A DNA stretch of 64,000 bases from Siniperca chuatsi. Lineage: Eukaryota; Chordata; Actinopteri; Centrarchiformes; Sinipercidae. The stretch spans positions 12,243,651-12,307,650 of the forward strand of contig NC_058063.1 of the NCBI RefSeq assembly GCF_020085105.1. Direction: 5' to 3'. A program made the position numbers and the translations under genes. Each line of letters starts with the position of its first letter. The first letter of the stretch is position 1. Below are positions 1 through 49,240 of the stretch, one piece after another. The notes below the pieces were generated by a model. It worked only from the letters and a program-made list of their open reading frames with translations. It searched no databases and was not told where the DNA came from.

Positions 1-3000
1 GATCATTTGACGAAGATGTGTGCTTTTCTGTCGGAAGGCCACAAAGGGGCAACATCCATGCAGAGTTGGGGCTCCAGTTCAACAACGTGGCGTCACCCGA
101 TCAAATCCCACAGGCTGATGCTGTTGCAGACACCTTAATAAGTGCTCTAAATAACCCCAACAACACCTTCGGCCTCGCTGTTGATCCCACCTCCATCCAA
201 GTGATTCGTAAGTAAACATGTAATACATGAACCTAAATTTCTCTCCAGTAAGTATTAATGCTGGGCAACGATATTTACCTTTTGTCACCCATCACTAATT
301 TACAACACCTGTAGGCTCAACAACTGGCGGGTCAACAACAACTACCGGGCCGACGACAAGTGGAGGCACCGCAGCTCCTCACCGGTTGTGGTTCTCGCAG
401 CAACCTTGGAAGAAGCATTTGTAGAAGAACTCAACAATCGCAGCAGCGCACAATACAGAGCTCAAACACGAGTTGAAACAGCGGTGCGTATAACTTGAAG
501 CTATTTATAACATTTGATGCTGTCTTGAGTCCATTTGCCATCCTGTTTGATTTCATTAGAAAAGCACTGTCACTTTACTGTGCTTAATGTTTCTCGTTTT
601 TGTTTCCGCTTACAGTTCGACTCCATCTTCAGTGAGAGATTTGGCCTCCTTTTCATCCGCACCTTTGTCATCGGATTTCGTAATCTTTTAAGTTTTGAAA
701 GTCTCTGACTTAAACGGCATCAGCTCATAATTAGAACGCTACCTTTTGGGCAATGGTCACATGTATTAAAGTCTTTTGGTGTGAGTGATGAAAAAATATA
801 CACTCTGAAATAAAGAAAGAACCCCTGCAATGTTGAAATATGATCATTTGACGAAGATGTGTGCTTTTCTGTCGGAAGGCCACAAAAGGGCAACATCCAT
901 GCAGAGTTGGGGCTCCAGTTCAACAACGTGGCGTCACCCGATCAAATCCCACAGGCTGATGCTGTTGCAGACACCTTAATAAGTGCTCTAAATAACCCCA
1001 ACAACACCTTTCGGCCTCGCTGTTGATCCCACCTCCATCCAAGTGATTCGTAAGTAAACATGTAATACATGAACCTAAATTTCTCTCCAGTAAGTATTAA
1101 TGCTGGGCAACGTATATTTACCTTTTGTCACCCATCACTAATTTACAACACCTGTAGGCTCAACAACTGGCGGGTCAACAACAACTACCGGGCCGACGAC
1201 AAGTGGAGGCACCGCAGCTCCCTCACCGGTTGTGGTTCTCGCAGCAACCTTGGAAGAAGCATTTGTAGAAGAACTCAACAATCGCAGCAGCGCATAATAC
1301 AGAGCTCTCAAACACGAGTTGAAACAGCGGTGCGCATAACTTGAAGCTATTTATAACATTTGATGCTGTCTTGAGTCCATTTGCCATCCTGTTTGATTTC
1401 ATTAGAAAAGCACTGTCACTTTACTGTGCTTAATGTTTTCGCTTTTGTTTCCCGCTTACAGTTCGACTCCATCTTCAGTGAGAGATTTGGCCTCCTTTTC
1501 ATCCGCACCTTTGTCATCGGATTTCGTAATCTTTTAAGTTTTGAAAGTCTCTGACTTAAACGGCATCAGCTCATAATTAGAACGCTACCTTTTGGGCAAT
1601 GGTCACATGTATTAAAGTCTTTCGTGTGAGTGATGAAAAAATATACACTCTGAAATAAAAGAAAGAACCCCCTGCAATGTTGAAATATGATCATTTGACG
1701 AAGATGTGTGCTTTTCTGTCGGAAGGCCACAAAGGGGCAACATCCATGCAGAGTTGGGGCTCCAGTTCAACAACGTGGCGTCACCCGATCAAATCCCACA
1801 GGCTGATGCTGTTGCAGACACCTTAATAAGTGCTCTAAATAACCCCAACAACACCTTCGGCCTCGCTGTTGATCCCACCTCCATCCAAGTGATTCGTAAG
1901 TAAACATGTAATACATGAACCTAAATTTCTCTCCAGTAAGTATTAATGCTGGGCAACGATATTTACCTTTTGTCACCCATCACTAATTTACAACACCTGT
2001 AGGCTCAACAACTGGCGGGTCAACAACAACTACCGGGCCGACGACAAGTGGAGGCACCGCAGCTCCTCACCGGTTGTGGTTCTCGCAGCAACCTTGGAAG
2101 AAGCATTTGTAGAAGAACTCAACAATCGCAGCAGCGCATAATACAGAGCTCTCGAAACACGAGTTGAAACAGCGGTGCGTACAACTTGAAGCTATTTATA
2201 ACATTTGATGCTGTCTTGAGTCCATTTGCCATCCTGTTTGATTTCATTAGAAAAGCACTGTCACTTTACTGTGCTTAATGTTTCGCTTTTGTTTCCCGCT
2301 TACAGTTCGACTCCATCTTCAGTGAGAGATTTGGCCTCCTTTTCATCCGCACTTTGTCATCGGATTTCGGTAATCTTTTAAGTTTTGAAAGTCTCTGACT
2401 TAAACGGCATCAGCTCATAATTAGAACGCTACCTTTTGGGCAATGGTCACATGTATTAAAGTCTTTCGGTGTGAGTGATGAAAAATATACACTCTGAAAT
2501 AAAGAAAGAACCCCTGCAATGTTGAAATATGATCATTTGACGAAGATGTGTGCTTTTCTGTCGGAAGGCCACAAAGGGGCAACATCCATGCAGAGTTGGG
2601 GCTCCAGTTCAACAACGTGGCGTCACCCGATCAAATCCCACAGGCTGATGCTGTTGCAGACACCTTAATAAGTGCTCTAAATAACCCCAACAACACCTTC
2701 GGCCTCGCTGTTGATCCCACCTCCATCCAAGTGATTCGTAAGTAAACATGTAATACATGAACCTAAATTTCTCTCCAGTAAGTATTAATGCTGGGCAACG
2801 ATATTTACCTTTTGTCACCCATCACTAATTTACAACACCTGTAGGCTCAACAACTGGCGGGTCAACAACAACTACCGGGCCGACGACAAGTGGAGGCACC
2901 GCAGCTCCCTCACCGGTTGTGGTTCTCGCAGCAACCTTGGAAGAAGCATTTGTAGAAGAACTCAACAATCGCAGCAGCGCACAATACAGAGCTCTCAAAC

Positions 3001-3773
3001 ACGAGTTGAAACAGCGGTGCGCATAACTTGAAGCTATTTATAACATTTGATGCTGTCTTGAGTCCATTTGCCATCCTGTTTGATTTCATTAGAAAAGCAC
3101 TGTCACTTTACTGTGCTTAATGTTTCTCGTTTTTGTTTCCCGCTTACAGTTCGACTCCATCTTCAGTGAGAGATTTGGCCTCCTTTTCATCCGCACCTTT
3201 GTCATCGGATTTTGGTAATCTTTTAAGTTTTGAAAGTCTCTGACTTAAACGGCATCAGCTCATAATTAGAACGCTACCTTTTGGGCAATGGTCACATGTA
3301 TTAAAGTCTTTCGTGTGAGTGATGAAAAAATATACACTCTGAAATAAAAGAAAGAACCCCCTGCAATGTTGAAATATGATCATTTGACGAAGATGTGTGC
3401 TTTTCTGTCGGAAGGCCACAAAGGGGCAACATCCATGCAGAGTTGGGGCTCCAGTTCAACAACGTGGCGTCACCCGATCAAATCCCACAGGCTGATGCTG
3501 TTGCAGACACCTTAATAAGTGCTCTAAATAACCCCAACAACACCTTCGGCCTCGCTGTTGATCCCACCTCCATCCAAGTGATTCGTAAGTAAACATGTAA
3601 TACATGAACCTAAATTTCTCTCCAGTAAGTATTAATGCTGGGCAACGATATTTACCTTTTGTCACCCATCACTAATTTACAACACCTGTAGGCTCAACAA
3701 CTGGCGGGTCAACAACAACTACCGGGCCGACGACAAGTGGAGGCACCGCAGCTCCCTCACCGGTTGTGGTTCT
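1..3773 (+). repeat. Array block 1: units 1-5, the most degraded
   Basis: Exon A copies start at 38, 879, 1726, 2568 and 3415. Units 1, 3, 4 and 5 share an intron variant (GGGCAACGATATTT instead of GGGCAACGTATATTT), which marks a local subfamily. Exon B of units 1 and 3 lacks one C in GCTCCCTCACC. Units 2 and 3 have GCATAATAC where others have GTACAATAC, putting TAA in frame. Exon A of unit 2 has an extra T near 1010. Exon C of units 1 and 2 ends TTTCGTAATC, one G short. Exon B of unit 5 is cut at 3773 by the first spacer. On sequence alone none of the first three units can be read straight through. Confidence 0.85.
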
Positions 3774-6700
3774 ATGGGATAATTTTCTAATATTTGTAAT
3801 ATATATACATTTAAAGAGTACTCAACAATTAAGCATTGTATAAAGTTGCACGTGAAACAAATAAAAAGATTTTAACAACCAATATCATTCCCATTAAGCA
3901 ACTAATAGCAGCCCTGTTTTGGCAACATGCGGTACAGCTGAGGCTGGATGAAAAGTTAAGGGATGACTAAAGTTATCAGAATTCATCCTGAGGGCTAAAT
4001 GTCTGTACCAAATTTTTAATCCATCATATTGTTATTTGAGACCTTTTCACTCAGGAGTGGTGCTAGAGGAAAGTCAGAGGATCACCCCAAGTCACTAGGC
4101 TTCATCGTATGGCAGCCACGAATGTGTGTATCCAATAATAATAATATACAGCCCGACATTTGCCATCCCTAAAAAAAAAAAAAAATTCTTCCAGATTAAT
4201 TTATTTTTCCTAATTTACCATATTAACGACCAAAAAACAGATCAAGCTCATCCAGTATTTGAAGTTATTGATTATTTATTAAGGCATCATAAATCAATGT
4301 AGAGAAAAATCAAAGCCTTTAACCAGGTTTGGTTTTTGGACATTCATAAATTTATTCATTCATTATTATTAATCTTATTGTCGATATTCACACATATCAG
4401 GTGTTTCTGTATTTAAATCCAAAAGACCAACAGCAGTATATTATTCACTAAATCAGTATTTCTGATGTTGATACAGCTCTCTCTGCTCAATTCAGAGTTA
4501 CTCAACTCCATAGGAGATAATACCTCAGATTTCGTCGGATTATAGAGTCCTGAGAAATTTTCTGAAACAGTTTATATACCACAGCGCATCCATGATGCAG
4601 AACAGAAGAACAGCTCACATAGTAGATCAAAAAGCTGTGGTGGAAGCTGTCCAAGTGTTTTTCTGGGCCGATTTTTACGAGGCCAGACCAAGTAATGATC
4701 CCACTCATTTCAATGTCAACGCTTTCACCTATATATTTCTATCGATTGAATGACATAAACTTAAAATCTAGTCTTAACGAAATGTTAAAACTGGCGGGTC
4801 AACAACAACTACCGGGCCGACGACAAGTGGAGGCACCGCAGCTCCCTCACCGGTTGTGGTTCTCGCAGCAACCTTGGAAGAAGCATTTGTAGAAGAACTC
4901 AACAATCGCAGCAGCGTACAATACAGAGCTCTCGAAACACGAGTTGAAACAGCGGTGCGTACAACTTGAAGCTATTTATAACATTTGATGCTGTCTTGAG
5001 TCCATTTGCCATCCTGTTTGATTTCATTAGAAAAGCACTGTCACTTTACTGTGCTTAATGTTTCTCGTTTTTGTTTCCCGCTTACAGTTCGACTCCATCT
5101 TCAGTGAGAGATTTGGCCTCCTTTTCATCCGCACCTTTGTCATCGGATTTGGTAATCTTTTAAGTTTTGAAAGTCTCTGACTTAAACGGCATCAGCTCAT
5201 AATTAGAACGCTACCTTTTGGGCAATGGTCACATGTATTAAAGTCTTTCGGTGTGAGTGATGAAAAAATATACACTCTGAAATAAAGAAAGAACCCCCTG
5301 CAATTTTGAAATATGATCATTTGACGAAGATGTGTGCTTTTCTGTCGGAAGGCCACAAAGGGGCAACATCCATGCAGAGTTGGGGCTCCAGTTCAACAAC
5401 GTGGCGTCACCCGATCAAATCCCACAGGCTGATGCTGTTGCAGACACCTTAATAAGTGCTCTAAATAACCCCAACAACACCTTCGGCCTCGCTGTTGATC
5501 CCACCTCCATCCAAGTGATTCGTAAGTAAACATGTAATACATGAACCTAAATTTCTCTCCAGTAAGTATTAATGCTGGGCAACGTATATTTACCTTTTGT
5601 CACCCATCACTAATTTACAACACCTGTAGGCTCAACAACTGGCGGGTCAACAACAACTACGGGCCGACGACAAGTGGAGGCACCGCAGCTCCCTCACCGG
5701 TTGTGGTTCTCGCAGCAACCTTGGAAGAAGCATTTGTAGAAGAACTCAACAATCGCAGCAGCGTACAATACAGAGCTCTCGAAACACGAGTTGAAACAGC
5801 GGTGCGTACAACTTGAAGCTATTTATAACATTTGATGCTGTCTTGAGTCCATTTGCCATCCTGTTTGATTTCATTAGAAAAGCACTGTCACTTTACTGTG
5901 CTTAATGTTTCTCGTTTTGTTTCCGCTTACAGTTCGACTCCATCTTCAGTGAGAGATTTGGCCTCCTTTTCATCCGCACCTTTGTCATCGGATTTGGTAA
6001 TCTTTTAAGTTTTGAAAGTCTCTGACTTAAACGGCATCAGCTCATAATTAGAACGCTACCTTTTGGGCAATGGTCACATGTATTAAAGTCTTTCGGTGTG
6101 AGTGATGAAAAAATATACACTCTGAAATAAAAGAAAGAACCCCCTGCAATTTTGAAATATGATCATTTGACGAAGATGTGTGCTTTTCTGTCGGAAGGCC
6201 ACAAAGGGGCAACATCCATGCAGAGTTGGGGCTCCAGTTCAACAACGTGGCGTCACCCGATCAAATCCCACAGGCTGATGCTGTTGCAGACACCTTAATA
6301 AGTGCTCTAAATAACCCCAACAACACCTTCGGCCTCGCTGTTGATCCCACCTCCATCCAAGTGATTCGTAAGTAAACATGTAATACATGAACCTAAATTT
6401 CTCTCCAGTAAGTATTAATGCTGGGCAACGTATATTTACCTTTTGTCACCCATCACTAATTTACAACACCTGTAGGCTCAACAACTGGCGGGTCAACAAC
6501 AACTACCGGGCCGACGACAAGTGGAGGCACCGCAGCTCCCTCACCGGTTGTGGTTCTCGCAGCAACCTTGGAAGAAGCATTTGTAGAAGAACTCAACAAT
6601 CGCAGCAGCGTACAATACAGAGCTCTCGAAACACGAGTTGAAACAGCGGTGCGTACAACTTGAAGCTATTTATAACATTTGATGCTGTCTTGAGTCCATT

Positions 6701-9700
6701 TGCCATCCTGTTTGATTTCATTAGAAAAGCACTGTCACTTTACTGTGCTTAATGTTTCTCGTTTTTGTTTCCCGCTTACAGTTCGACTCCATCTTCAGTG
6801 AGAGATTTGGCCTCCTTTTCATCCGCACCTTTGTCATCGGATTTCGGTAATCTTTTAAGTTTTGAAAGTCTCTGACTTAAACGGCATCAGCTCATAATTA
6901 GAACGCTACCTTTTGGGCAATGGTCACATGTATTAAAGTCTTTCGGTGTGAGTGATGAAAAAATATACACTCTGAAATAAAAGAAAGAACCCCCTGCAAT
7001 GTTGAAATATGATCATTTGACGAAGATGTGTGCTTTTCTGTCGGAAGGCCACAAAGGGGCAACATCCATGCAGAGTTGGGGCTCCAGTTCAACAACGTGG
7101 CGTCACCCGATCAAATCCCACAGGCTGATGCTGTTGCAGACACCTTAATAAGTGCTCTAAATAACCCCAACAACACCTTCGGCCTCGCTGTTGATCCCAC
7201 CTCCATCCAAGTGATTCGTAAGTAAACATGTAATACATGAACCTAAATTTCTCTCCAGTAAGTATTAATGCTGGGCAACGTATATTTACCTTTTGTCACC
7301 CATCACTAATTTACAACACCTGTAGGCTCAACAACTGGCGGGTCAACAACAACTACCGGGCCGACGACAAGTGGAGGCACCGCAGCAGCTCCTCACCGGT
7401 TGTGGTTCTCGCAGCAACCTTGGAAGAAGCATTTGTAGAAGAACTCAACAATCGCAGCAGCGTACAATACAGAGCTCTCGAAACACGAGTTGAAACAGCG
7501 GTGCGTACAACTTGAAGCTATTTATAACATTTGATGCTGTCTTGAGTCCATTTGCCATCCTGTTTGATTTCATTAGAAAAGCACTGTCACTTTACTGTGC
7601 TTAATGTTTCTCGTTTTTGTTTCCCGCTTACAGTTCGACTCCATCTTCAGTGAGAGATTTGGCCTCCTTTTCATCCGCACCTTTGTCATCGGATTTGGTA
7701 ATCTTTTAAGTTTTGAAAGTCTCTGACTTAAACGGCATCAGCTCATAATTAGAACGCTACCTTTTGGGCAATGGTCACATGTATTAAAGTCTTTCGGTGT
7801 GAGTGATGAAAAAATATACACTCTGAAATAAAGAAAGAACCCCCTGCAATTTTGAAATATGATCATTTGACGAAGATGTGTGCTTTTCTGTCGGAAGGCC
7901 ACAAAGGGGCAACATCCATGCAGAGTTGGGGCTCCAGTTCAACAACGTGGCGTCACCCGATCAAATCCCACAGGCTGATGCTGTTGCAGACACCTTAATA
8001 AGTGCTCTAAATAACCCCAACAACACCTTCGGCCTCGCTGTTGATCCCACCTCCATCCAAGTGATTCGTAAGTAAACATGTAATACATGAACCTAAATTT
8101 CTCTCCAGTAAGTATTAATGCTGGGCAACGTATATTTACCTTTTGTCACCCATCACTAATTTACAACACCTGTAGGCTCAACAACTGGCGGGTCAACAAC
8201 AACTACCGGGCCGACGACAAGTGGAGGCACCGCAGCTCCCTCACCGGTTGTGGTTCTCGCAGCAACCTTGGAAGAAGCATTTGTAGAAGAACTCAACAAT
8301 CGCAGCAGCGTACAATACAGAGCTCTCGAAACACGAGTTGAAACAGCGGTGCGTACAACTTGAAGCTATTTATAACATTTGATGCTGTCTTGAGTCCATT
8401 TGCCATCCTGTTTGATTTCATTAGAAAAGCACTGTCACTTTACTGTGCTTAATGTTTCTCGTTTTTGTTTCCCGCTTACAGTTCGACTCCATCTTCAGTG
8501 AGAGATTTGGCCTCCTTTTCATCCGCACCTTTGTCATCGGTTTGGTAATCTTTTAAGTTTTGAAAGTCTCTGACTTAAACGGCATCAGCTCATAATTAGA
8601 ACGCTACCTTTTGGGCAATGGTCACATGTATTAAAGTCTTTCGGTGTGAGTGATGAAAAAATATACACTCTGAAATAAAGAAAGAACCCCCTGCAATGTT
8701 GAAATATGATCATTTGACGAAGATGTGTGCTTTTCTGTCGGAAGGCCACAAAGGGGCAACATCCATGCAGAGTTGGGGCTCCAGTTCAACAACGTGGCGT
8801 CACCCGATCAAATCCCACAGGCTGATGCTGTTGCAGACACCTTAATAAGTGCTCTAAATAACCCCAACAACACCTTCGGCCTCGCTGTTGATCCCACCTC
8901 CATCCAAGTGATTCGTAAGTAAACATGTAATACATGAACCTAAATTTCTCTCCAGTAAGTATTAATGCTGGGCAACGTATATTTACCTTTTGTCACCCAT
9001 CACTAATTTACAACACCTGTAGGCTCAACAACTGGCGGGTCAACAACAACTACCGGGCCGACGACAAGTGGAGGCACCGCAGCTCCCTCACCGGTTGTGG
9101 TTCTCGCAGCAACCTTGGAAGAAGCATTTGTAGAAGAACTCAACAATCGCAGCAGCGTACAATACAGAGCTCTCGAAACACGAGTTGAAACAGCGGTGCG
9201 TACAACTTGAAGCTATTTATAACATTTGATGCTGTCTTGAGTCCATTTGCCATCCTGTTTGATTTCATTAGAAAAGCACTGTCACTTTACTGTGCTTAAT
9301 GTTTCTCGTTTTTTTTCCCGCTTACAGTTCGACTCCATCTTCAGTGAGAGATTTGGCCTCCTTTTCATCCGCACCTTTGTCATCGGATTTCGGTAATCTT
9401 TTAAGTTTTGAAAGTCTCTGACTTAAACGGCATCAGCTCATAATTAGAACGCTACCTTTTGGGCAATGGTCACATGTATTAAAGTCTTTCGGTGTGAGTG
9501 ATGAAAAAATATACACTCTGAAATAAAAGAAAGAACCCCCTGCAATGTTGAAATATGATCATTTGACGAAGATGTGTGCTTTTCTGTCGGAAGGCCACAA
9601 AGGGGCAACATCCATGCAGAGTTGGGGCTCCAGTTCAACAACGTGGCGTCACCCGATCAAATCCCACAGGCTGATGCTGTTGCAGACACCTTAATAAGTG

Positions 9701-18700: not shown

Positions 18701-19399
18701 GCACCTTTGTCATCGGATTTGGTAATCTTTTAAGTTTTGAAAGTCTCTGACTTAAACGGCATCAGCTCATAATTAGAACGCTACCTTTTGGGCAATGGTC
18801 ACATGTATTAAAGTCTTTCGGTGTGAGTGATGAAAAAATATACACTCTGAAATAAAGAAAGAACCCCCTGCAATTTTGAAATATGATCATTTGACGAAGA
18901 TGTGTGCTTTTCTGTCGGAAGGCCACAAAGGGGCAACATCCATGCAGAGTTGGGGCTCCAGTTCAACAACGTGGCGTCACCCGATCAAATCCCACAGGCT
19001 GATGCTGTTGCAGACACCTTAATAAGTGCTCTAAATAACCCCAACAACACCTTCGGCCTCGCTGTTGATCCCACCTCCATCCAAGTGATTCGTAAGTAAA
19101 CATGTAATACCACAAGAAGGGAGGTACTATGAGATCAAGCCAAGAAACTGTCAGATTCAAAGTTGATTTGTTCTTTGCTGTGGTGTCATAACATTTCTGA
19201 AAATTAGTCACACCATTTGTTGGTGATAGAGTCCATTATATAAAGGCTTTAATAGATGAGGACTGCCATAACAGGAAAAATGTTTTCAATGTCACCGATG
19301 TGAAATAGATTAAATAAATAACGACTGTCGATTAAGTGGTATCTATTCTATTCTTCTAATTTGGGTAAGTAAATCTTTAAATATATACACCTTTTTACA

Positions 19400-19445
<46 letters not shown>

Positions 19446-22400
19446 AAAATAACAATTGGAGGCTGTATTGATTCTTGTATGGACATTATTTTAATATCCC
19501 TCTCCATAGTGAGATTGCAGGTCAGGGACAGCTACTGTAGTAGAAATACTATAGCTTGAAAAAATGGACAAAAGACAATTTGAAGAAACATTATGACAAG
19601 TTTAGTAAAGAATATGGGATAATTTTCTAATATTGTGTATGTACATTTAAAGAGGTACTCAGCAATTAAGCATTGTATAAAGTTGCACGTGAAACAAATA
19701 AAAAGATTTTAACAACCAATATCATTCCCATTACACTAATAGCAGCCCTGTTTGGCAACATGCGGTACAGCTGAGGCTGATGAAAAGTTAAGGGATGACC
19801 AGTTATCAGAATTCATCCTGAGGGCTAAATGTCTGTACCAAATTTTAATCCATCATATTGTTGTTGAGACCTTTCACTCAAGGTGGTGCTAGAGGAAAAG
19901 TCAGAGGATCACCCCAAGTCACTAGGCTTCATCATGTGGCAACCACGAATGTGTATCCAATAATAATAATATACAGCCCGACATTGCCATCCCTAAAAAA
20001 AAATTCTTCCAGATTAATTTATTTTTCCCATTTACCATATTAACAGACAAAACAGATCAAGCTCATCCAGTATTTGATTATTGATTATTTATTAAGGCAT
20101 CATAAATCAAGCTCAACAACTGGCGGGTCAACAACAACTACCGGGCCGACGACAAGTGGAGGCACCGCAGCTCCCTCACCGGTTGTGGTTCTCGCAGCAA
20201 CCTTGGAAGAAGCATTTGTAGACGAACTCAACAATCGCAGCAGCGTACAATACAGAGATCTCGAAACACGAGTTGAAACAGCGGTGCGTACAACTTGAAG
20301 CTATTTATAACATTTGATGCTGTCTTGAGTCCATTTGCCATCCTGTTTGATTTCATTAGAAAAGCACTGTCACTTTACTGTGCTTAATGTTTCTCGTTTT
20401 TGTTTCCCGCTTACAGTTCGACTCCATCTTCAGTGAGAGATTTGGCCTCCTTTTCATCCGCACCTTTGTCATCGGATTTCGGTAATCTTTTAAGTTTTGA
20501 AAGTCTCTGACTTAAACGGCATCAGCTCATAATTAGAACGCTACCTTTTGGGCAATGGTCACATGTATTAAAGTCTTTCGGTGTGAGTGATGAAAAAATA
20601 TACACTCTGAAATAAAGAAAGAACCCCCTGCAATGTTGAAATATGATCATTTGACGAAGACGTGTGCTTTTCTGTCGGAAGGCCACAAAGGGGCAACATC
20701 CATGCAGAGTTGGGGCTCCAGTTCAACAACGTGGCGTCACCCGATCAAATCCCACAGGCTGATGCTGTTGCAGACACCTTAATAAGTGCTCTAAGTAACC
20801 CCAACAACACCTTCGGCCTCGCTGTTGATCCCACCTCCATCCAAGTGATTCGTAAGTAAACATGTAATACATGAACCTAAATTTCTCTCCAGTAAGTATT
20901 AATGCTGGGCAACGTATATTTACCTTTTGTCACCCATCACTAATTTACAACACCTGTAGGCTCAACAACTGGCGGGTCAACAACAACTACCGGGCCGACG
21001 ACAAGTGGAGGCACCGCAGCTCCCTCACCGGTTGTGGTTCTCGCAGCAACCTTGGAAGAAGCATTTGTAGAAGAACTCAACAATCGCAGCAGCGTACAAT
21101 ACAGAGCTCTCGAAACACGAGTTGAAACAGCGGTGCGTACAACTTGAAGCTATTTATAACATTTGATGCTGTCTTGAGTCCATTTGCCATCCTGTTTGAT
21201 TTCATTAGAAAAGCACTGTCACTTTACTGTGCTTAATGTTTCTCGTTTTTGTTTCCCGCTTACAGTTCGACTCCATCTTCAGTGAGAGATTTGGCCTCCT
21301 TTTCATCCGCACCTTTGTCATCGGATTTGGTAATCTTTTAAGTTTTGAAAGTCTCTGACTTAAACGGCATCAGCTCATAATTAGAACGCTACCTTTTGGG
21401 CAATGGTCACATGTATTAAAGTCTTTCGGTGTGAGAGTGATGAAAAATATACACTCTGAAATAAAGAAAGAACCCCCTGCAATGTTGAAATATGATCATT
21501 TGACGAAGACGTGTGCTTTTCTGTCGGAAGGCCACAAAGGGGCAACATCCATGCAGAGTTGGGGCTCCAGTTCAACAACGTGGCGTCACCCGATCAAATC
21601 CCACAGGCTGATGCTGTTGCAGACACCTTAATAAGTGTTCTAAATAACCCCAACAACACCTTCGGCCTCGCTGTTGATCCCACCTCCATCCAAGTGATTC
21701 GTAAGTAAACATGTAATACATGAACCTAAATTTCTCTCCAGTAAGTATTAATGCTGGGCAACGTATATTTACCTTTTGTCACCCATCACTAATTTACAAC
21801 ACCTGTAGGCTCAACAACTGGCGGGTCAACAACAACTACCGGGCCGACGACAAGTGGAGGCACCGCAGCTCCCTCACCGGTTGTGGTTCTCGCAGCAACC
21901 TTGGAAGAAGCATTTGTAGAAGAACTCAACAATCGCAGCAGCGCACAATACAGAGCTCTCGAAACACGAGTTGAAACAGCGGTGCGTGCAACTTGAAGCT
22001 ATTTATAACATTTGATGCTGTCTTGAGTCCATTTGCCATCCTGTTTGATTTCATTAGAAAAGCACTGTCACTTTACTGTGCTTAATGTTTCTCGTTTTGT
22101 TTCCCGCTTACAGTTCGACTCCATCTTCAGTGAGAGATTTGGCCTCCTTTTCATCCGCACCTTTGTCATCGGTTTGGTAATCTTTTAAGTTTTGAAAGTC
22201 TCTGACTTAAGCGGCATCAGCTCATAATTAGAACGCTACCTTTTGGGCAATGGTCACATGTATTAAAGTCTTTCGGTGTGAGTGATGAAAAAATATACAC
22301 TCTGAAATAAAGAAAGAACCCCCTGCAATTTTGAAATATGATCATTTGACGAAGACGTGTGCTTTTCTGTCGGAAGGCCACAAAGGGGCAACATCCATGC

Positions 22401-28400: not shown

Positions 28401-31400
28401 AGACACCTTAATAAGTGCTCTAAATAACCCCAACAACACCTTCGGCCTCGCTGTTGATCCCACCTCCATCCAAGTGATTCGTAAGTAAACATGTAATACA
28501 TGAACCTGAATTTCTCTCCAGTAAGTATTAATGCTGGGCAACGTATATTTACCTTTTGTCACCCATCACTAATTTACAACACCTGTAGGCTCAACAACTG
28601 GCGGGTCAACAACAACTACCGGGCCGACGACAAGTGGAGGCACCGCAGCTCCCTCACCGGTTGTGGTTCTCGCAGCAACCTTGGAAGAAGCATTTGTAGA
28701 AGAGCTCAACAATCGCAGCAGCGCACAATACAGAGATCTCGAAACACGAGTTGAAACAGCGGTGCATACAACTTGAAGCTATTTATAACATTTGATGCTG
28801 TCTTGAGTCCATTTGCCATCCTGTTTGATTTCATTAGAAAAGCACTGTCACTTTACTGTGCTTAATGTTTCTCGTTTTTTTCCCGCTTACAGTTCGACTC
28901 CATCTTCAGTGAGAGATTTGGCCTCCTTTTCATCCGCACCTTTGTCATCGGATTTGGTAATCTTTTAAGTTTTGAAAGTCTCTGACTTAAACGGCATCAG
29001 CTCATAATTAGAACGCTACCTTTTGGGCAATGGTCACATGTATTAAAGTCTTTCGGTGTGAGTGATGAAAAAATATACACTCTGAAATAAAGAAAGAACC
29101 CCCTGCAATTTTGAAATATGATCATTTGACGAAGATGTGTGCTTTTCTGTCGGAAGGCCACAAAGGGGAAACATCCATGCAGAGTTGGGGCTCCAGTTCA
29201 ACAACGTGGCGTCACCCGATCAAATCCCACAGGCTGATGCTGTTGCAGACACCTTAATAAGTGCTCTAAATAACCCCAACAACACCTTCGGCCTCGCTGT
29301 TGATCCCACCTCCATCCAAGTGATTCGTAAGTAAACATGTAATACATGAACCTAAATTTCTCTCCAGTAAGTATTAATGCTGGGCAACGTATATTTACCT
29401 TTTGTCACCCATCACTAATTTACAACACCTGTAGGCTCAACAACTGGCGGGTCAACAACAACTACCGGGCCGACGACAAGTGGAGGCACCGCAGCTCCCT
29501 CACCGGTTGTGGTTCTCGCAGCAACCTTGGAAGAAGCATTTGTAGACGAACTCAACAATCGCAGCAGCGTACAATACAGAGATCTCGAAACACGAGTTGA
29601 AACAGCGGTGCGTACAACTTGAAGCTATTTATAACATTTGATGCTGTCTTGAGTCCATTTGCCATCCTGTTTGATTTCATTAGAAAAGCACTGTCACTTT
29701 ACTGTGCTTAATGTTTCTCGTTTTTTTCCCGCTTACAGTTCGACTCCATCTTCAGTGAGAGATTTGGCCTCCTTTTCATCCGCACCTTTGTCATCGGATT
29801 TGGTAATCTTTTAAGTTTTGAAAGTCTCTGACTTAAACGGCATCAGCTCATAATTAGAACGCTACCTTTTGGGCAATGGTCACATGTATTAAAGTCTTTC
29901 GGTGTGAGTGATGAAAAAATATACACTCTGAAATAAAGAAAGAACCCCCTGCAATTTTGAAATATGATCATTTGATGAAGATGTGTGCTTTTCTGTCGGA
30001 AGGCCACAAAGGGGAAACATCCATGCAGAGTTGGGGCTCCAGTTCAACAACGTGGCGTCACCCGATCAAATCCCACAGGCTGATGCTGTTGCAGACACCT
30101 TAATAAGTGCTCTAAATAACCCCAACAACACCTTCGGCCTCGCTGTTGATCCCACCTCCATCCAAGTGATTCGTAAGTAAACATGTAATACATGAACCTA
30201 AATTTCTCTCCAGTAAGTATTAATGCTAGGCAACGTATATTTACCTTTTGTCACCCATCACTAATTTACAACACCTGTAGGCTCAACAACTGGCGGGTCA
30301 ACAACAACTACCGGGCCGACGACAAGTGGAGGCACCGCAGCTCCCTCACCGGTTGTGGTTCTCGCAGCAACCTTGGAAGAAGCATTTGTAGAAGAACTCA
30401 ACAATCGCAGCAGCGTACAATACAGAGATCTCGAAACACGAGTTGAAACAGCGGTGCGTACAACTTGAAGCTATTTATAACATTTGATGCTGTCTTGAGT
30501 CCATTTGCCATCCTGTTTGATTTCATTAGAAAAGCACTGTCACTTTACTGTGCTTAATGTTTCTCGTTTTTTTTCCCGCTTACAGTTCGACTCCATCTTC
30601 AGTGAGAGATTTGGCCTCCTTTTCATCCGCACCTTTGTCATCGGATTTGGTAATCTTTTAAGTTTTGAAAGTCTCTGACTTAAACGGCATCAGCTCATAA
30701 TTAGAACGCTACCTTTTGGGCAATGGTCACATGTATTAAAGTCTTTCGGTGTGAGTGATGAAAAAATATACACTCTGAAATAAAGAAAGAACCCCTGCAA
30801 TTTTGAAATATGATCATTTGACGAAGATGTGTGCTTTTCTGTCGGAAGGCCACAAAGGGGAAACATCCATGCAGAGTTGGGGCTCCAGTTCAACAACGTG
30901 GCGTCACCCGATCAAATCCCACAGGCTGATGCTGTTGCAGACACCTTAATAAGTGCTCTAAATAACCCCAACAACACCTTCGGCCTCGCTGTTGATCCCA
31001 CCTCCATCCAAGTGATTCGTAAGTAAACATTTCATTTACTCATTTAATTGTCTTTATACTATAGAGTATTAATGCTTGGCCTTTAACCTATTAATATCTT
31101 AACTTTAATAACTATTACTTTATCACAATACCTGTAGGGTTAACAACAACCAATGGGGCAATGACAACAAGTGGTGGATCAACAGTAGATGCAGTTTCAA
31201 TCACAAGTCGTCCGCCATTGACAACTGTAGCATCAGTCACACCCAGTGGGTCAACTCGTACCAGTGGATCAACTACAACTGGTGGATTAACAATAACCAG
31301 TGGGTCAACAAGTACCAATGGATCAACTACAACTGGTGCTTCAATAATAACTGATGGTTCTCCAACAACTGGACGGTCAACTACAGCTGCTTCTTCAGTT

Positions 31401-32194
31401 ACAACTGATGGATCAGTAACATCTCAAGAAACAACTAGTCCTGTTGGACTAGGTGGTGCAGTTACCACAGCTGCCCCCTTTGTTGTTGTTCTCACAGCAA
31501 ACTTGGAAGAACCATTTGTAGAAGAACTCAAAAATCCAAGCAGTATACAATACAGAGCACTTGAAAGAAGAGTTGTAACAGCAGTGAGTAAGATTTTTTA
31601 ACTTTAACGTGGTTTAAGTGAATTTGACATTCCGTTCAATTTTATTTGGATGCATCTTTTAGTTTACTAATTTATTTCAATTTTATTTCCCTTTCACAGT
31701 GTGATCTCATCTACAGGGCAAGATTTGGTTTTCTTTTCATCCGCACATTTGTCATACGATTTAGGTAATATTTTAATAATTGAAAGCATTTCTCAGAATA
31801 CATTCTCATAGCTTCAAGAGTAAATTGTGGGATATGGTCCTCAATAGTAGAATGTTTCAGTGTTGAATAATAAAAAATCACGTGAAAAAATAAAAGCAAA
31901 AATAACAAATTATCATGTCATGAAGTTATGTATTTTTTTATGCAGTCGTGTTGTAGCAAGGACACGAATGGAGAACACTAATGCAGAGGTGGGACTCGAA
32001 TTCAACAATACAGCTTCACAAGATCAAATCCCACAAGATGATGTTGTTGTGGACACCTTAGTACAAGCTCTGAGTAACCCCAACAACACCTTCAACCTCA
32101 CTGTTGATACAAACACCATTGAAATCATACGTAAGTGTACAACTGTTCATAGGTTGGTATTTGTCCTTCATTTATAAAACTGTAACCAATTCAT

Positions 32195-32229
<35 letters not shown>

Positions 32230-34722
32230 AATTGGGTTTATTTGTTGTATTTGTTTGTGTACTATGGTAAACAATATGATTTTATTCACATCAAAGTAAT
32301 CACTACAAATTATTTCTAACATTCTTCTGGGAGCCATCTGGAAATAACAGACTCGATTAACAATGGGTATTGAAAAGGTTGTCAGTTTCAATACATTATC
32401 AATTAATAGTCACCAATATAAGATATTGAATTGCTTTCTTGATTGATCCCTTTTTTTAAATAATTGCGTGGATAAAGAGCATACTCTTTCTTTATTACAT
32501 CTTACGAAGTGGACTGTGATGCACATCAACTATACTACTGTGGTTTTTCATATCTAAACAGCTATTGACATATATGTGTATCGGTGAAAGAAGGTCTTCT
32601 GGCAACCATCAGTTTTTTTTTTCTGTCATACTTCCCAGCCTTAAAAAGTATGGAAACCAGTTTAAATGGATTGTGGTGTAATGTCCCTATCTGCCTAGAC
32701 TAAATAAGTAAGTAATGTTTATGGGTAATTGTGAAACAGGGGAAGTTTATGAAATTAGGTACACAACACCAGGCAACTACAGTTTGTGGTATATACACAT
32801 ACTGTATGATGAAGTTACTGAAAATGCTCATCATGCCTCTAGCTTTTGACATGCTTTAAGACACTTTACTCACTAAAGCCACCCAAAGGTAAAGGTCTGT
32901 ATTTCCCATTTACACTTAGCCATTTCATGCATTAAAGTAATCCGATTTCTCAGACCACAGTGGGAGGTGGTTTGATACAAGGTTATATGTAAGTGTAAAC
33001 AAAAGTGTTAATAACACTTTAAATTACATGTATAAATAGGGCCTTTGACATCCAATATATAAGAAAAAGAACATGAGCCTAAAACTTATTAAAGTATTCT
33101 TATTGTTTTTACAGGAACTCCAAATACAACATTAAGTTCACCAACTACAGCAACAAATTCAAATACTACATCTACTCCGCCTAAAACTGCTGCACCTGCA
33201 ACCACAACTACAGCAACTCCAGTTACAACTGCTACGACTGCTGCAATGACAGTGTCTGTAACAGCAGTTGCTACAACTACTGTACAATTCATAAAACGGA
33301 AGCTGACTTTCAGATCTGCGGGAGAGACATTTACAAATGACTTGCTGAATCCGTCATCGTTTGCATTTGTAAATCGAGCTGAAATGATAAAGATGATGGT
33401 AAGTTGCTCCATTTAAAATTAAACCTGTGGTAACAAACATATCCAATATTTTGACTTATCAGAGGGAGGTTACTGCCCACTACACAATGGTTTGAAATAC
33501 AGGTTTTGGAATCCAAATGTCACAAGATATTTAGGGACGTACTGTGAAATAAGCCTTCACCTCTCATTTAGGCCTTTTCCACTACAGGAACGTATTGACT
33601 GGTAACCTGTAGCTTCCCATAACCTGAAACTGTAAGAACCCATAAGGTCTAGGTTCTAGATTCTGCCCTGTATTCCACTATGTTTACAAACCAGAACATT
33701 TCAGATATCATTGAAAAGGCGACACTGTGGTACTGTTTTGGGACAGATAACAATGAAAAAAGTGGTGCTAATATAGATTTTCTTTTACATTTACATGTGG
33801 CAAAGTTTAAACATCAGTATCAGTAAATTAAAAGAAGAGCCCCACCCACAGTAGGAGCTCGACTGAATGAAGCAAAAAGAGTACATTAGACATATGGAGC
33901 ATAAAGGACATAGATCAGAAATGTGTTATGTGTATCATGAAAGAAATTTGACAAAAATGTAATAAAGACATAGAAAAGAGAATTACATAAATTAAGTAGA
34001 ACAAAAGAAGTTGTGTTAAAAAACACACTGCTAAAGTGAAGAAAAGCACACCATTAAAAATATAGCCAACATAAATGTGCTTATAATTTATTTGCTTTTA
34101 TTTCTGCAGCTCGAACCTTTCTACCAAAGAGCATTCTCTTCATTCAGATCCTTGGCAGTGATTTCATTCAGGTAATTTGTTTATGTTATCTTGGTAATTA
34201 TTATAGGGCTCCAGTTCAACAGCATGGCATCACCCGATAAAATCCCACAGGCTGATGCTGTTGTAGATAGGGCTGTGAATAACCCCCAAAACACCTTTGG
34301 CCTTGCTGTTGATCCAACCTCCATCAAAATGATTTAATGAAAATTATTTAACAGTATTATAAATTAACAGTATTTTTCTGTAATTCCTTCTGCAGTAATG
34401 GATCAATCATCAACACGGTGGACCTAAGCTTTGCATCCACATCAGTTCCCAGTAACACTCAGATTGCAGATGTTTTGGCTGGAGCAGCTTCAAATATCAC
34501 AGCTTTCAACATTGACACCACTTCCTTTTTTGTGGATGGCACACGTAAGCAATATTGAATGCTACCTCATCAAAAATGTAAAATATTACAGAAATATTTG
34601 TGATATCTTATTTCCCTTTCTCCTCATCTACAGACGTGTCAAGTGGAGTAAGCCACAAGACCAGTCTCATCACTGCATTCTTCCTTGTGCTGCTGTCATG
34701 GTTACTGTCAAGCCAGCAATAG
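1..34722 (+). CDS. Giant tandem-SEA, mucin-like cell-surface protein gene (5'-partial)
   Basis: The gene encodes an extracellular protein of repeated SEA domains joined by Ser/Thr-rich linkers, probably GPI-anchored. Seen: each unit has exon A (ends ATTC|GTAAGT), exon B (after CCTGTAG, ends ACAGCG|GTGCGT) and exon C (after CTTACAG, ends before GTAATC). Phases are 1 after A, 0 after B and 2 after C; the sum is 136 codons. The SEA fold is read across B-C-A: VVVLAATLEEAFVEELN, then FDSIFSERFGLLFIRTFVIGF, then AELGLQFNN...VADTLISALNNPNNTF. Each unit has Asn-glycosylation sequons NRS and NNT and a TTGGSTTTTGPTTSGG O-glycosylation-type linker. Family knowledge: SEA domains occur in mucins and other heavily glycosylated surface proteins; MUC16 also has serial SEA repeats. 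The start lies upstream of the window. Many units have frame-breaking indels, so the span may be partly pseudogenic or carry assembly errors. SEA assignment is firm; function is inferred. Confidence 0.85.
3774..4788. other. Spacer 1 interrupting exon B of the array
   Basis: A sharp junction after GGTTCT inside exon B (3773) begins ~1,015 bp of unrelated AT-rich DNA. Exon B resumes at about 4789 with ACTGGCGGGTC, so ~30-90 nt of exon B is duplicated across the spacer. Positions 3774-4297 match 19614-20110 of the second spacer; 4298-4788 has no partner in the window. A stretch near 4060-4180 (GTGGTGCTAGAGGAAAGTCAG...) resembles a common teleost dispersed repeat. A poly(A) run lies near 4172-4185. 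No coding exon was seen. The resumed exon B has no acceptor of its own. Confidence 0.85.
4789..9189 (+). repeat. Array block 2: exon A copies at 5352, 6198, 7048, 7898 and 8745
   Basis: Exon C 3' ends vary. Those near 5150, 5995 and 7694 end GGATTTG|GTAAT (one base short), the one near 6842 ends GGATTTCG|GTAAT (standard), and the one near 8540 ends CGGTTTG|GTAAT (two short). Exon B near 5660 lacks one C in TACCGGGCC. Exon B near 7385 reads CGCAGCAGCTCCTCACC, a net +2. The introns downstream of exon C carry either CAATGTTGAAATATG or CAATTTTGAAATATG; in this block the TTTT form follows most of the one-base-short exon Cs. Coding potential is otherwise unchanged. Confidence 0.85.
9190..13440 (+). 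repeat. Array block 3: exon A copies at 9594, 10445, 11294, 12142 and 12992
   Basis: Exon C near 9386, 11085 and 12780 has the standard TTTCG|GTAAT end. The copy near 10238 is one base short and the one near 11930 two bases short. Exon B ending near 10048 has one extra GCA codon (GAAACAGCAGCG), which keeps the frame. Introns with AAATAAAAGAAAG versus AAATAAAGAAAG alternate irregularly, as expected if neighbouring units were copied in groups. This block contains several of the units that read cleanly under the standard splice pattern. Confidence 0.85.
13441..19110 (+). repeat. Array block 4: exon A copies at 13840 to 18922 (7 copies)
   Basis: Exon A copies start at 13840, 14688, 15535, 16379, 17227, 18075 and 18922. 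The exon C near 13630 is standard, but the six exon Cs from ~14480 to ~18720 all end GGATTTG|GTAAT, one base short, and are followed by the CAATTTTG intron form. This is the longest run of that variant. Exon B near 14240 has an extra A (CAACAAATCG), and exon B near 15878 lacks a C (CTCACGGTT). Exon A at 15535 lacks two bases (GGCCAAAGG). The unit at 18075 is the first with AGAGATCTCGAAAC in exon B instead of AGAGCTCTC. Confidence 0.85.
19111..20110. other. Spacer 2 interrupting the array, with (TA)n
   Basis: The junction lies 22 bases into the intron after exon A (ATGTAATAC|CACAAG). The spacer runs to ATAAATCAA|GCTCAAC, where exon B starts at once. The normal acceptor CCTGTAG is therefore missing; the only AG here (20110-20111) would shift the frame. 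Positions 19111-19613 are not found elsewhere in the window, and 19614-20110 match 3774-4297 of spacer 1. A (TA)n microsatellite occupies about 19403-19442. No convincing exon was seen. Confidence 0.85.
20111..24540 (+). repeat. Array block 5: exon A copies at 20682, 21531, 22377, 23226 and 24074
   Basis: The first exon B (from 20111) has GACGAACTC and AGAGATCTC variants. Exon A copies at 20682, 21531 and 22377 share GACGAAGACGTG upstream instead of GACGAAGATGTG. Exon C is standard near 20476 and 23868, one base short near 21324 and 23019, and two short near 22170. Exon B near 22795 has ATACACAGAGCTCTCAAAACACG with extra bases. Exon B near 23538 reads CGGGCGGCGAC, one base short. The unit near 24523 has AACAGCGGGTGCG, an extra G at the exon B donor. 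Confidence 0.85.
24541..31018 (+). repeat. Array block 6: 3'-most standard units, exon A copies at 24923 to 30849 (8 copies)
   Basis: Exon A copies start at 24923, 25768, 26616, 27462, 28311, 29157, 30003 and 30849. From 27462 onward all carry GGGGAAACATCC (GGGGCAACATCC elsewhere; synonymous), and exon B carries AGAGATCTCG: a homogenised sub-block next to the diverged terminal unit. Exon C near 25561 ends TTTTGG and near 28103 TTTCGG; both keep the frame. Those near 24716, 26410, 27256, 28950, 29800 and 30644 are one base short, and the one near 27215 also lacks two bases (TTCAGGAGAG). Exon A at 30849-31018 is the last standard copy; its intron diverges right after GTAAGTAAACAT. Confidence 0.88.
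31138..31583 (+). CDS. Diverged exon B: long Ser/Thr-rich mucin stretch plus SEA start
   Basis: Exon of the same gene, 446 nt (2 + 148 codons), against 173 nt in the array. The acceptor is CACAATACCTGTAG and the donor ACAGCA|GTGAGT; phases match the array exons. The first ~110 residues are Ser/Thr/Gly-rich with loose STTTGG / SGSTSTNGS repeats, an O-glycosylation-type region. The last ~35 residues (FVVVLTANLEEPFVEELKN...) align with the array's SEA start. It is uninterrupted and clearly distinct from the array, so it is probably closer to the pre-amplification state. Confidence 0.85.
31700..31764 (+). CDS. Diverged exon C (SEA middle)
   Basis: 65 nt, the same length and phases as the standard array exon C. 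The acceptor is CCTTTCACAG and the donor AG|GTAATA. It reads CDLIYRARFGFLFIRTFVIRF, close to FDSIFSERFGLLFIRTFVIGF. Its end, TTTAG|GTAAT, has five bases before GT and so supports the 65-nt form as ancestral and the one-base-short array copies as derived. Confidence 0.85.
31946..32130 (+). CDS. Diverged exon A (SEA end)
   Basis: 185 nt (1 + 61 codons + 1), 15 nt longer than array exon A but in the same phase. The acceptor TTTTTTTATGCAG has a strong pyrimidine tract and aligns with the downstream acceptor (GTCGGAAG) of array units. It encodes AEVGLEFNNTASQDQIPQ and VVDTLVQALSNPNNTFNL, homologous to the array. The donor is ATCATAC|GTAAGT. It has no GSVVV-type cleavage site; the residues at that place are RMENTNAEV. 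Confidence 0.85.
32197..32227 (+). repeat. (GT)n microsatellite in intron
   Basis: About 15 uninterrupted GT units in the ~1 kb intron between the diverged exon A and the last SEA domain. The rest of this intron (32131-33114) shows no exon or recognisable transposon. Confidence 0.95.
33115..33398 (+). CDS. Exon B of the membrane-proximal SEA domain
   Basis: 284 nt (2 + 94 codons). The acceptor is TTGTTTTTACAG and the donor ATGATG|GTAAGT. The first ~58 residues are rich in Thr, Ala and Pro (TATNSNTTSTPPKTAAPATT...), a mucin-type stalk. It continues into VQFIKRKLTFRSAGETFTND and LLNPSSFAFVNRAEMIKMM, the start of a SEA domain divergent from the array. The phases equal those of array exon B, so this is an older paralogous module of the same gene. 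Confidence 0.85.
34110..34171 (+). CDS. Exon C of the membrane-proximal SEA domain
   Basis: 62 nt (20 codons + 2), three shorter than array exon C. The acceptor is ATTTCTGCAG and the donor TTCAG|GTAATT. It reads LEPFYQRAFSSFRSLAVISF, matching the F..iF..rF....r...i.F pattern of the array. Its incoming phase 0 and outgoing phase 2 fit the exons on both sides. Confidence 0.82.
34206..34335 (+). pseudogene. Fossil copy of array exon A inside an intron
   Basis: Within the intron between 34171 and 34396 lies a sequence ~85% like the last three quarters of array exon A. It reads without a stop: GLQFNSMASPDKIPQADAVV, then NNPQNTFGLAVDPTSI, then KMI before TAA. The TLISAL segment is shortened in frame. 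It lacks an acceptor and the first ~30 nt, and the functional SEA end follows at 34396, so it would be surplus. Most likely it is a stray exon copy dropped in by unequal exchange or conversion. Confidence 0.75.
34396..34544 (+). CDS. Exon A of the membrane-proximal SEA domain, with GSII motif
   Basis: 149 nt (1 + 49 codons + 1). The acceptor is CCTTCTGCAG and the donor GCACAC|GTAAGC. With the preceding AG it begins SNGSIINTVDLSFAS, followed by NTQIADVLAGAASNI and the end of the SEA fold. The GSII string sits where self-cleaving SEA domains carry G-S-V-V-V, between two beta strands. Array units have GNIHAEL there instead. Whether GSII supports cleavage is inference. Confidence 0.82.
34634..34722 (+). 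CDS. Last coding exon: GPI-anchor-like C-terminus
   Basis: The acceptor is CTCATCTACAG and the stop TAG at 34720-34722. It encodes HVSSGVSHKT followed by SLITAFFLVLLSWLLSSQQ. Small residues (SSGVS), a short polar spacer and a ~15-residue hydrophobic end with no basic cytoplasmic tail fit a GPI-attachment signal better than a transmembrane anchor. It would tether the tandem-SEA protein to the outer cell surface. Prediction from composition only. Confidence 0.75.
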
Positions 34723-36104: not shown

Positions 36105-37245
36105 TGATGGTCCCACCATGAGCAAGCACTTGGCGACAGTGGCAAGGAAAAACTTCCTTTTAAGAGGCAGAAACCTCGAGCAGAACCAGACTCAATGGTG
36201 GGCAGCCATCCACTGCTGCTGTGTTAGGTTTTGAGAGAGAGAGAGAGGTTTTTGAGAGATAGGCAGAGAAAAAGACAGACAGAGAGAAGGAGGTTTAGAA
36301 AGAGAGAGCGAAAGAGGTTTTGAGAGTGAGAGAGAGAAGGGGGGTGGGGGAGAGGAAGGGAGGAGGGGCGAGGAAGCACAATTGAAATACCACTTAGAAT
36401 TTTAAAATAGTAATAATGTAAGGGTAGTGGTAATATTAATAAGTTAATAATAATAGGAATGACAGTCATAGGAATAATAATGCCAATAATAGTAACAGAG
36501 CCAATAACAATAACTGTAGTAGCAGTTGTCGAGCAAGAACATGGGGTCAGCAGGTGGCCCACAACCACAGATCCAGTCTCTGCAGCTCCAGAGGTAGAAA
36601 TACCTGCTGAAAGCAACAGAAAGAGAGAGAAGAGAAATGAGAAAGCACAAAACTAAGGGAGAGAGAAGATCTCGAGTTAGTAACATGCATTAATGGGATA
36701 AAAATGCATACAGACAGAGAGGGAGAGAAGGAGAGAGGAAAGAGGTGCATCGTGGGTAGGCTCCCGGCAGTCTAGGCCTATAACAGCATAACCAAGGGAT
36801 GGTTCAGGACTGACCCAAGCCAGCCCTAACTATAAGCTTTATCAAAAAAGAAAGTCTTAAGCCTACTCTTAAATGTGGAGATGGTGTCTCCCGAACCCAA
36901 ACTGGGACCTGATTCCACAGGAGAGGAGCTTGTTAACTGAAGGCTCTGGCTCCCGTTCTACTTTTGGAGACTCTAGGAACCACAAGTAACCCTGCATTCT
37001 GGGAGCGCAGTGTTCTAGTCGGGTTATAAGGTATTATGAGCTCTTTAAGCTACAATGTTGCCTGACCATTAAGAGTTTTGTAGGTGAGGAGAAGGATTTT
37101 AAATTCTATTCTGGATTTTACAGGGAGCCAGTGCAGAGAAGCTAATAGTGGAGACATATGATCTCTTTTCCTAGTTCTTGTCAGTACACATGCTGCAGCA
37201 TTCTGGATCAACTGGAGAATCTTAAAGGACTTTAGAACTTTGGGA
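36105..37245 (+). repeat. Teleost dispersed non-coding repeat
   Basis: Recognised by wording common in teleost genomes: GAGCAAGCACTTGGCGACAG, AAGGAAAAACTTCC, GCAGAACCAGACTCA, then later AAGGGATGGTTCAG, CCCTAACTATAAGC and GATTCCACAGGAGAGGAGC. It contains (GA)n from about 36233 to 36350 and AT-rich simple repeat near 36410-36500. The ORFs across it are low-complexity products of GA and CT runs, not genes. Class unknown to me. A second, inverted copy of its middle part lies at about 62733-62910. Confidence 0.7.
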
Positions 37246-48801: not shown

Positions 48802-48811
48802 GCCTAAAATC

Positions 48812-49240
48812 TAGATCAAATATAAAATATAAGCTAAAACTATACAATAAGGGAATACGAGACATAATAAAAAAAGTGGGTGGGCAAGTTTGGGAGCGAG
48901 TTCAGCTTCCTGACAGCCTGATGGATGAAGCTGTCCTTCAGTCTGTTGGTCCTTGGCCAGTGCTGCAGTGTTGTCGGTCCAGGAGAGGTCCTCTGTGATG
49001 TGCACACCCAGGAACTTGGTGCTGCTCACTCTCTCCACAGTCGCACCGTTGATGGTCAGAGGAACATGCTGAGTGTGCACTCTCCTGAAGTCGACAACAA
49101 TCTCCTTCGTCTTCTCCACGTTCAGAGAGAGACTGTTGTCACTGCACCACCCGGCCAGGCGGCTCACCTCGCTCCTGTAGTTTGTCTCATCTCTGTTGCT
49201 AATGAGACCCACCACAGTCGTCATCCGCAAACTTAATGAA
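48812..49240 (-). pseudogene. Rex1/Babar-like LINE reverse transcriptase fragment
   Basis: Minus-strand reading: TTVVGLISNRDETNYRSEV, LAGWCSDNSLSLNVEKTKE, FRRVHTQHVPLTINGATVER and TKFLGVHITEDLSWTDNTA. This is the RT C-terminal region that follows the F-A-D-D box; that box is put out of frame by one base near 49215. The element was already present when the Rex3-like copy landed in it. Confidence 0.75.

Follow-up and report, generated by a model that had tools for sequence, protein, structure and literature searches.

A tandem array of three-exon SEA-domain cassettes in fish DNA: candidate 3′ part of a gene for a long, mucin-like cell-surface protein

When a three-exon cassette is repeated dozens of times in a fish genome, introns included, does it still encode a protein, and what kind of protein would that be? 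The question is raised by the window analysed here, a stretch of 64,000 nt in which a direct repeat of about 848 nt extends from position 1 to ~31030. By repeat search, border patterns and unit alignment, we resolved this repeat into 34 tandem cassettes of ~848 nt on the forward strand (38..31018), which follow the order A-B-C in the DNA and B-C-A in the protein; 848 nt is the majority cassette length among the 32 insert-free units. The initial annotation had described some 35 units joined by Ser/Thr linkers, and we indeed found 35 A, 34 B and 34 C exons up to position 31018, with the linkers present. The largest repeat family is a 300-nt piece with 35 copies; among the 30 copies listed, 24 match the reference at 95% identity or more in ungapped alignment, and the other six at 67-88%. 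Since the B and C partners of the first A exon (38-207, + strand) fall to the left of the window, the array extends past the left window end, and the 5′ end, any signal peptide and the promoter are likewise outside the window. Its right edge is abrupt: the last array-type A exon (30849-31018, +) and about the first 12 bases of the following intron are array-like, and the sequence beyond is unlike the array.

In its intact form, a cassette is made up of exons A (170 nt), B (173 nt) and C (65 nt), which give 408 nt or 136 codons. As derived from the exon sequences, codons are split in phase 1 at A-B, phase 0 at B-C and phase 2 at C-A. As a cassette starts and ends in the same phase, whole cassettes can be added or removed without a change of frame. 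An intact example is unit 7, in which exon B (6476..6648, +, 173 nt) encodes a Ser/Thr linker and the first part of a SEA domain, exon C (6782..6846, +) contributes 65 nt, and exon A (7048..7217, +, 170 nt) completes the domain. The joined B-C-A reading is open, its translation is free of cysteine, and in the profile check that the initial annotation had proposed it matches PF01390 with 35 bits (E 1.7e-8), above the cut-off of 26.4. That serial SEA domains come from a repeated three-exon cassette is supported by the exon borders, the unit alignment and this SEA match. The repeat itself and the SEA E-values exclude chance, and the tandem SEA array is real. If every array unit were intact, the predicted coding content of the window would be ~5,100 residues (34 x 136 + 56 + 426, by arithmetic).

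The exon borders are kept almost throughout the array. Border patterns were found for 35 A acceptors, 35 A donors, 33 B acceptors, 34 B donors, 34 C acceptors and 34 C donors; as these patterns include the AG or GT themselves, the counts show that each expected copy retains its border and are not an independent score of conservation. The sole expected border that is absent is the B acceptor of unit 22, which was removed by an insert.

Downstream of the array, two diverged SEA domains, each likewise split B-C-A, are followed by a last coding exon that ends at 34722. Terminal domain 1 is encoded by exon B (31138..31583, +, 446 nt), which carries a long Ser/Thr linker with 18/54-nt repeats, exon C (31700..31764, +, 65 nt) and exon A (31946..32130, +, 185 nt). 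Terminal domain 2 is encoded by exon B (33115..33398, +, 284 nt) with a Thr/Pro-rich linker, exon C (34110..34171, +, 62 nt) and exon A (34396..34544, +, 149 nt). Together with one base carried over from the end of the preceding A exon, the terminal exons form a single frame of 1281 nt, or 427 codons including the stop at 34722. Terminal domain 2 matches PF01390 with 34.7 bits (E 2.1e-8), over the cut-off of 26.4, and terminal domain 1 with 24.8 bits (E 2.4e-5), just under it; the latter is 66% identical to the array unit in alignment. The Ser/Thr linkers are short in each array unit and longer in both terminal B exons. Inside the linker of terminal domain 1, a 54-nt tandem repeat of two copies with an 18-nt sub-repeat (31243-31351) forms a short mucin repeat of the conventional kind next to the SEA array.

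The last coding exon (34634..34722, +) encodes HVSSGVSHKTSLITAFFLVLLSWLLSSQQ followed by the stop. Its tail has a small-residue site, a short spacer and a hydrophobic end with four residues (SSQQ) before the stop, which resembles a GPI signal. Judged by eye, a putative GPI signal forms the C-terminus, in place of a tailed transmembrane anchor. A GPI-like end had been claimed before, and it is found here, ending exactly at 34722.

The last C-A intron holds an A-exon relic (34206..34334, +) that lacks the first 31 nt and is 82% identical to the array A exon, compared with 77% for the A exon of terminal domain 1. As the relic is closer to array A than the terminal domain 1 exon is, pieces of the cassette also landed outside the array.

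Have the cassettes been kept for the protein that they encode? A comparison of unit 7 with terminal domain 1 over 327 aligned nt gave dN 0.196 and dS 0.527 (dN/dS 0.37), and the array introns had no BLAST match (E 1e-3) past position 31000 in the window. With the introns unrecognisable and the ratio at 0.37, the exons were once kept under protein-level selection.

The array as written is another matter, as most of its units are broken. The following counts refer to 32 units, the last unlike unit (u35) and the insert-bearing units 5 and 22 being left out. Exon A has 170 nt in 30 of them and exon B 173 nt in 20; exon C reaches 65 nt in 9, the others having 64 nt (19 units) or 63 nt (4 units). 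All three intact lengths coincide in only seven (u7, u10, u12, u14, u15, u28 and u31), so that the 136-codon design proposed by the initial annotation holds for these seven and fails in the remaining insert-free units. Among the 34 joins of B(i)-C(i)-A(i+1), seven are open and one is net-zero; short indels break another 24, and the remaining two, cut by inserts of ~1 kb (3775-4790; ~19112-20110), were left out of further scoring. The earlier statement that all phases are compatible therefore fits the intact form and not the sequence as written, in which 7 of 34 joins are open, and intactness is not supported, with 24 indel-broken and two insert-cut joins. The break seen most often lies at the end of exon C, where 22 of the 32 insert-free units lack one base; for units 1 and 2, this may be the adjoining G. 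In addition, a CAA codon in exon B has become a TAA stop in units 2 and 3.

We considered whether alternative splicing could rescue a 64-nt C exon, and rejected two hand-worked candidates. An internal C acceptor restores the length and puts a TGA in frame, and a B donor 4 nt further on likewise restores the length with an in-frame TGA as the result.

How the breaks are to be read decides what the array is. One reading is decay: an older SEA gene would have kept its terminal domains, while the cassettes multiplied like a satellite and are no longer translated as one chain. Besides the 26 broken or cut joins, this reading would account for the substitution stops in units 2 and 3 and for the one-base loss at the exon C end, which in its recurrence looks like an inherited change and exceeds, at one site, what random error would lead us to expect. 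Coding changes within the array also look unconstrained. Two units differ on average by 0.53% in their exons and by 0.57% in their introns (793 gap-free columns); exons, with 3.2 indels per kb (42 events), are no poorer in them than introns, with 2.7 per kb (38 events); and the 12 nonsynonymous and 5 synonymous changes correspond to the neutral share (73% expected, P 0.79). Within the array, changes look neutral and there is no positive sign of present constraint, but 17 changes have little power, and an array with ~0.5% divergence may be too young for selection to show in them.

The character of the indels argues against decay. Of the 29 indel sites, 21 fall at a homopolymer or no more than 2 nt from a CpG, compared with 35% expected (binomial P 4e-5), the CpG widths and homopolymer run lengths having been picked after the variant list was seen; for CpG only, the figures are 14 of 29 against 21% expected (P 0.001). 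Such clustering suggests consensus error. Base loss at CpG is not a known hallmark of real mutation; CpG transitions account for 6 of 45 substitutions, as expected of real mutation. Indels are also numerous, with 29 indel sites against 45 substitution sites in the array, whereas neutral vertebrate DNA has about one indel per 8 or 10 substitutions. As this share is far over the neutral level, we counted it toward error. Moreover, the exon borders are retained in all expected copies except one, and the single-copy terminal coding part, which is downstream, allows reads to be placed and would share the transcript, is fully open: its 1281 nt contain no indel, compared with 4.1 predicted from the array exon rate (P 0.016), or 2.0 predicted when the recurrent C-exon site is taken out (P 0.14).

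Taken together, it is probable that most single-base breaks within the array arose as consensus errors, the repeat being one that polishing could not correct. We hold error to be only somewhat likelier than real decay; the recurrence in 22 of 32 units, the two stops and the two inserts all point to the latter; as an account of the whole array, decay appears unlikely, but it deserves to be taken seriously. Our preferred reading, to which we give a probability of about 0.6, is that a gene for a very long cell-surface protein, mucin-like and GPI-anchored, has its 3′ part in the window, that its units were amplified and homogenised, and that its frame breaks are mostly errors.

That the array has been homogenised is seen in the distribution of its variants. 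There are 20 substitution haplotypes among the 32 insert-free units, and two of them cover 14 units. These 14 all belong to units 6-21, where 16 units share four haplotypes; by comparison, units 23-34 have twelve haplotypes in 12 units and units 1-4 have four. The middle of the array is homogenised and its 3′ edge is more varied. A similar pattern is described for six human mucins, in which the repeats at array boundaries are more degenerate, and this is attributed to reduced homogenisation in the available text of a preprint (PMC13345508).

The same uniformity raises doubts about the number of units. The copy number cannot be trusted, as it comes from the assembly of near-identical repeats (20 haplotypes in 32 units, two of them covering 14), and it is conceivable that the array is in truth far shorter or far longer, its near-identical middle having been mis-stacked. 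Such an artefact, which would be compatible with our preferred reading of the gene, is in our judgement a real possibility that falls somewhat short of an even chance. It would explain why two haplotypes dominate units 6-21, and why this stretch sits exactly between the two insert-bearing units. A precedent is human MUC16, for which the repeat count dropped from 63 to 19 with long-read cDNA, as reported in the part of that study available (PMC10829539). What speaks for separate copies is that 30 distinct full sequences are found among the 32 insert-free units, although much of this diversity consists of indels, and that the twelve haplotypes of units 23-34 and the four of units 1-4 look like those of genuine individual units. 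If the count is right, the window contains 36 SEA domains with all three exons, namely 34 in the array, including the two hit by inserts, and the two terminal ones.

The inserts themselves could be of several origins. The first (3775..4790, unstranded), of ~1 kb, splits exon B of unit 5 and is flanked on the right by a second copy of part of that exon; the second (19112..20110, unstranded), also of ~1 kb, lies in unit 22, where it has taken the place of most of the A-B intron together with the normal B acceptor, and contains a TA run (19403-19443). With 91% identity over 526 aligned positions, the two are less alike than the cassettes around them (~99.5%), and their edges differ. That the edges are abrupt and that part of exon B is repeated at one of them also favours an assembly artefact in the unit count. 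For a transposon reading, we found no inverted pair in the first insert and no terminal inverted repeats in either; the 19 inverted pairs of the second are all AT-rich hairpins around the TA run, except for one 23-nt pair at 78%. No further copy of the inserts was found within the 64-kb window. An assembly join, a mobile element and intron sequence of greater age are all conceivable sources.

To place the SEA domains among known ones, we compared them with solved structures. The array unit alone gave weak matches to SEA proteases (8vis, E 0.01; 2e7v, E 0.032), and the remaining 13 of its 15 matches were receptor kinases, which we took as chance. Terminal domain 2 matched ADGRF1 (GPR110; 7wxu, E 6.3e-5, and 8hc0, E 4.2e-4), with which it has FTNDLLN and NGSI in common, and no solved relative besides ADGRF1 was found up to E 1. 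A three-sequence profile had seven matches: 2e7v (E 3.9e-5), ADGRF1 (7.1e-5 and 1.7e-4), 8vis (0.0026), 1ivz (0.04), which we take to be the mouse Muc16 SEA domain, and two others taken as chance. The best solved matches of the array unit are thus SEA domains of TMPRSS11 or HAT-like proteases, weak for the unit alone and firmer by profile (2e7v), and the solved relative of the last SEA domain is that of ADGRF1. In their architecture, both differ from the gene described here: TMPRSS11 and HAT-like proteins are membrane serine proteases with just one SEA domain, and ADGRF1 has its SEA domain in a seven-pass receptor, with no serial array.

Not every SEA member carries a self-cleavage motif. At the position of this motif, given as G-S-[V/I]-V-V (PMC10687090, in the text available), the array unit has GNIHA and terminal domain 1 has ENTNA, neither of which is a match. 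Terminal domain 2, whose exon A starts with NGSII, has GSIIN at this position and matches the motif in part. It is plausible that the last SEA domain would thus provide a breakable link adjoining the membrane.

The obvious comparison is with MUC16 (CA125), known in humans as a tumour-marker gene, as it too combines serial SEA domains, Ser/Thr linkers and a multi-exon repeat. The MUC16 repeat is described as having 156 residues, five exons, ~1,900 bp and a pair of conserved cysteines, and the protein as having a potential transmembrane region (PMC3431878, in the text available). In contrast, the repeat here has 136 residues, three exons and ~848 bp, the array unit has no cysteine, and the end is GPI-like, as judged by eye from a hydrophobic stretch that is followed by SSQQ only. 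The two also differ in repeat number, with 19 in MUC16 by long reads, as noted above, and 36 SEA domains here if our count is right, and in behaviour: human MUC16 is described as almost fixed in length and its repeat as the most degenerate (PMC13345508, preprint, in the text available), unlike the homogenised array found here. That the cassette is not that of MUC16, as the initial annotation had put it, is borne out by these exon and residue numbers. As the cassettes differ, an independent amplification of a MUC16-like architecture is the favoured explanation, so far as the sequences allow us to judge.

Could the gene instead be the true MUC16 orthologue of the species, with a reshaped repeat? 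We regard this as very improbable. Serial SEA domains and Ser/Thr linkers ahead of a membrane end would be expected of an orthologue, and a GSVVV-like motif (DSVLV) is reported for one membrane-proximal CA125 SEA domain (PMC3431878, in the text available), which may be compared with the GS motif in the last domain here. Against these likenesses stand the three exons instead of five, the 136 residues instead of 156, the missing cysteine pair and the GPI-like instead of potential transmembrane end. The structure profile also ranks the TMPRSS11-type domain (E 3.9e-5) and ADGRF1 (7.1e-5) over 1ivz (E 0.04), although ranks of such short domains are weak evidence. Because of the exon number, the length and the cysteines, we rejected MUC16 orthology as the main reading.

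The amplification of a domain within one gene has been observed elsewhere. In teleost Piccolo b, a domain-encoding exon was amplified, which is attributed to unequal crossovers (PMC3484663, in the text available), but there it is one exon in 8-16 copies in a synaptic protein, and here it is a three-exon cassette including its introns in ~34 near-identical copies. Mucin-5AC of the fish lateral line cupula has CysD domains whose number ranges from 2 to 27 between species (PMC11765562); it is likewise a fish mucin with a widely varying domain number, but it is secreted, and the available text of that report mentions no SEA domain. Sea bream membrane mucins have a SEA domain adjoining the transmembrane domain (PMC3680472, in the text available), unlike the GPI-like end here. 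Membrane-tethered mucins have been defined by at least one PTS domain together with a SEA or VWD domain (PMC1552070, in the text available); SEA domains are found here, along with Ser/Thr linkers, and the N-terminal part lies outside the window. No fish gene with serial SEA domains was found among the literature matches listed, a set that covers few subscription journals and is no proof that none has been published. Fish genome annotations hold SEA-rich predictions named 'mucin-like' or 'threonine-rich GPI-anchored glycoprotein', so that publicly annotated genomes probably include related predicted proteins. In viral contigs, one alignment-based scan gave 58 pattern matches, none of which was confirmed as a relative.

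Returning to the preferred reading, of a coding gene with mostly erroneous breaks, we suggest how such an array could arise and work. Each ~848-nt cassette would yield one SEA domain and a short Ser/Thr linker. Unequal crossing-over, the simplest cause of amplification, could gain or lose whole cassettes with the frame preserved, and homogenisation would keep units in the middle of the array near-identical in exons and introns alike. The protein could stand, presumably on a wet epithelial surface, as a rod in which serial SEA domains are joined by O-glycosylated linkers. Next to the membrane, the two older SEA domains would serve as an anchor module, tethered by GPI, and the GS-type motif of the last one could be the site where the chain parts and is shed. 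Further than this, we tentatively propose, with less than even confidence, that a vertebrate lineage has made its own MUC16-like rod from a cysteine-free three-exon cassette, recently amplified with its introns by unequal crossing-over, with at least 36 SEA domains, a GPI anchor and a self-cleavage-type motif only in the membrane-proximal position.

Should this proposal be true, the length of the rod could differ between individuals, unlike that of human MUC16, which the available text of the preprint gives as almost fixed (PMC13345508). An intact array would mean that the serial-SEA architecture was reached by a gene outside the MUC16 design. It would allow a direct test of what a barrier needs, with SEA fold, linker and anchor on one side and a dispensable cysteine loop and transmembrane signalling tail on the other, and it would be a natural case of whole-cassette homogenisation within a coding gene. 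A decayed array would show satellite-like growth overtaking a coding array. Either way, caution is called for when copy numbers or reading frames of near-identical coding repeats are taken from assemblies, for which the MUC16 revision from 63 to 19 is the best warning.

The rest of the window, downstream of the gene, has a different content. The Rfam search (gathering thresholds) and the tRNA scan of the 64-kb window found nothing. Among 12 frames scanned with profiles, 8 had no match and 3 matched reverse transcriptase (RVT_1), as fragments at 41091-41597 (+), 48014-48901 (-) and 55046-55753 (-). A frame adjoining the last of these (54492-55073, -) matches ALKBH8_N and, instead of being a DNA-repair gene, probably forms the end of that retroelement. 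Two frames, 36224-36652 (-) and 62621-62923 (+), have a similar stretch around GHLL-PCSCSTT, which suggests a dispersed repeat. Finally, a 45-nt minisatellite at 58233-58432 is open in more than one frame on both strands.
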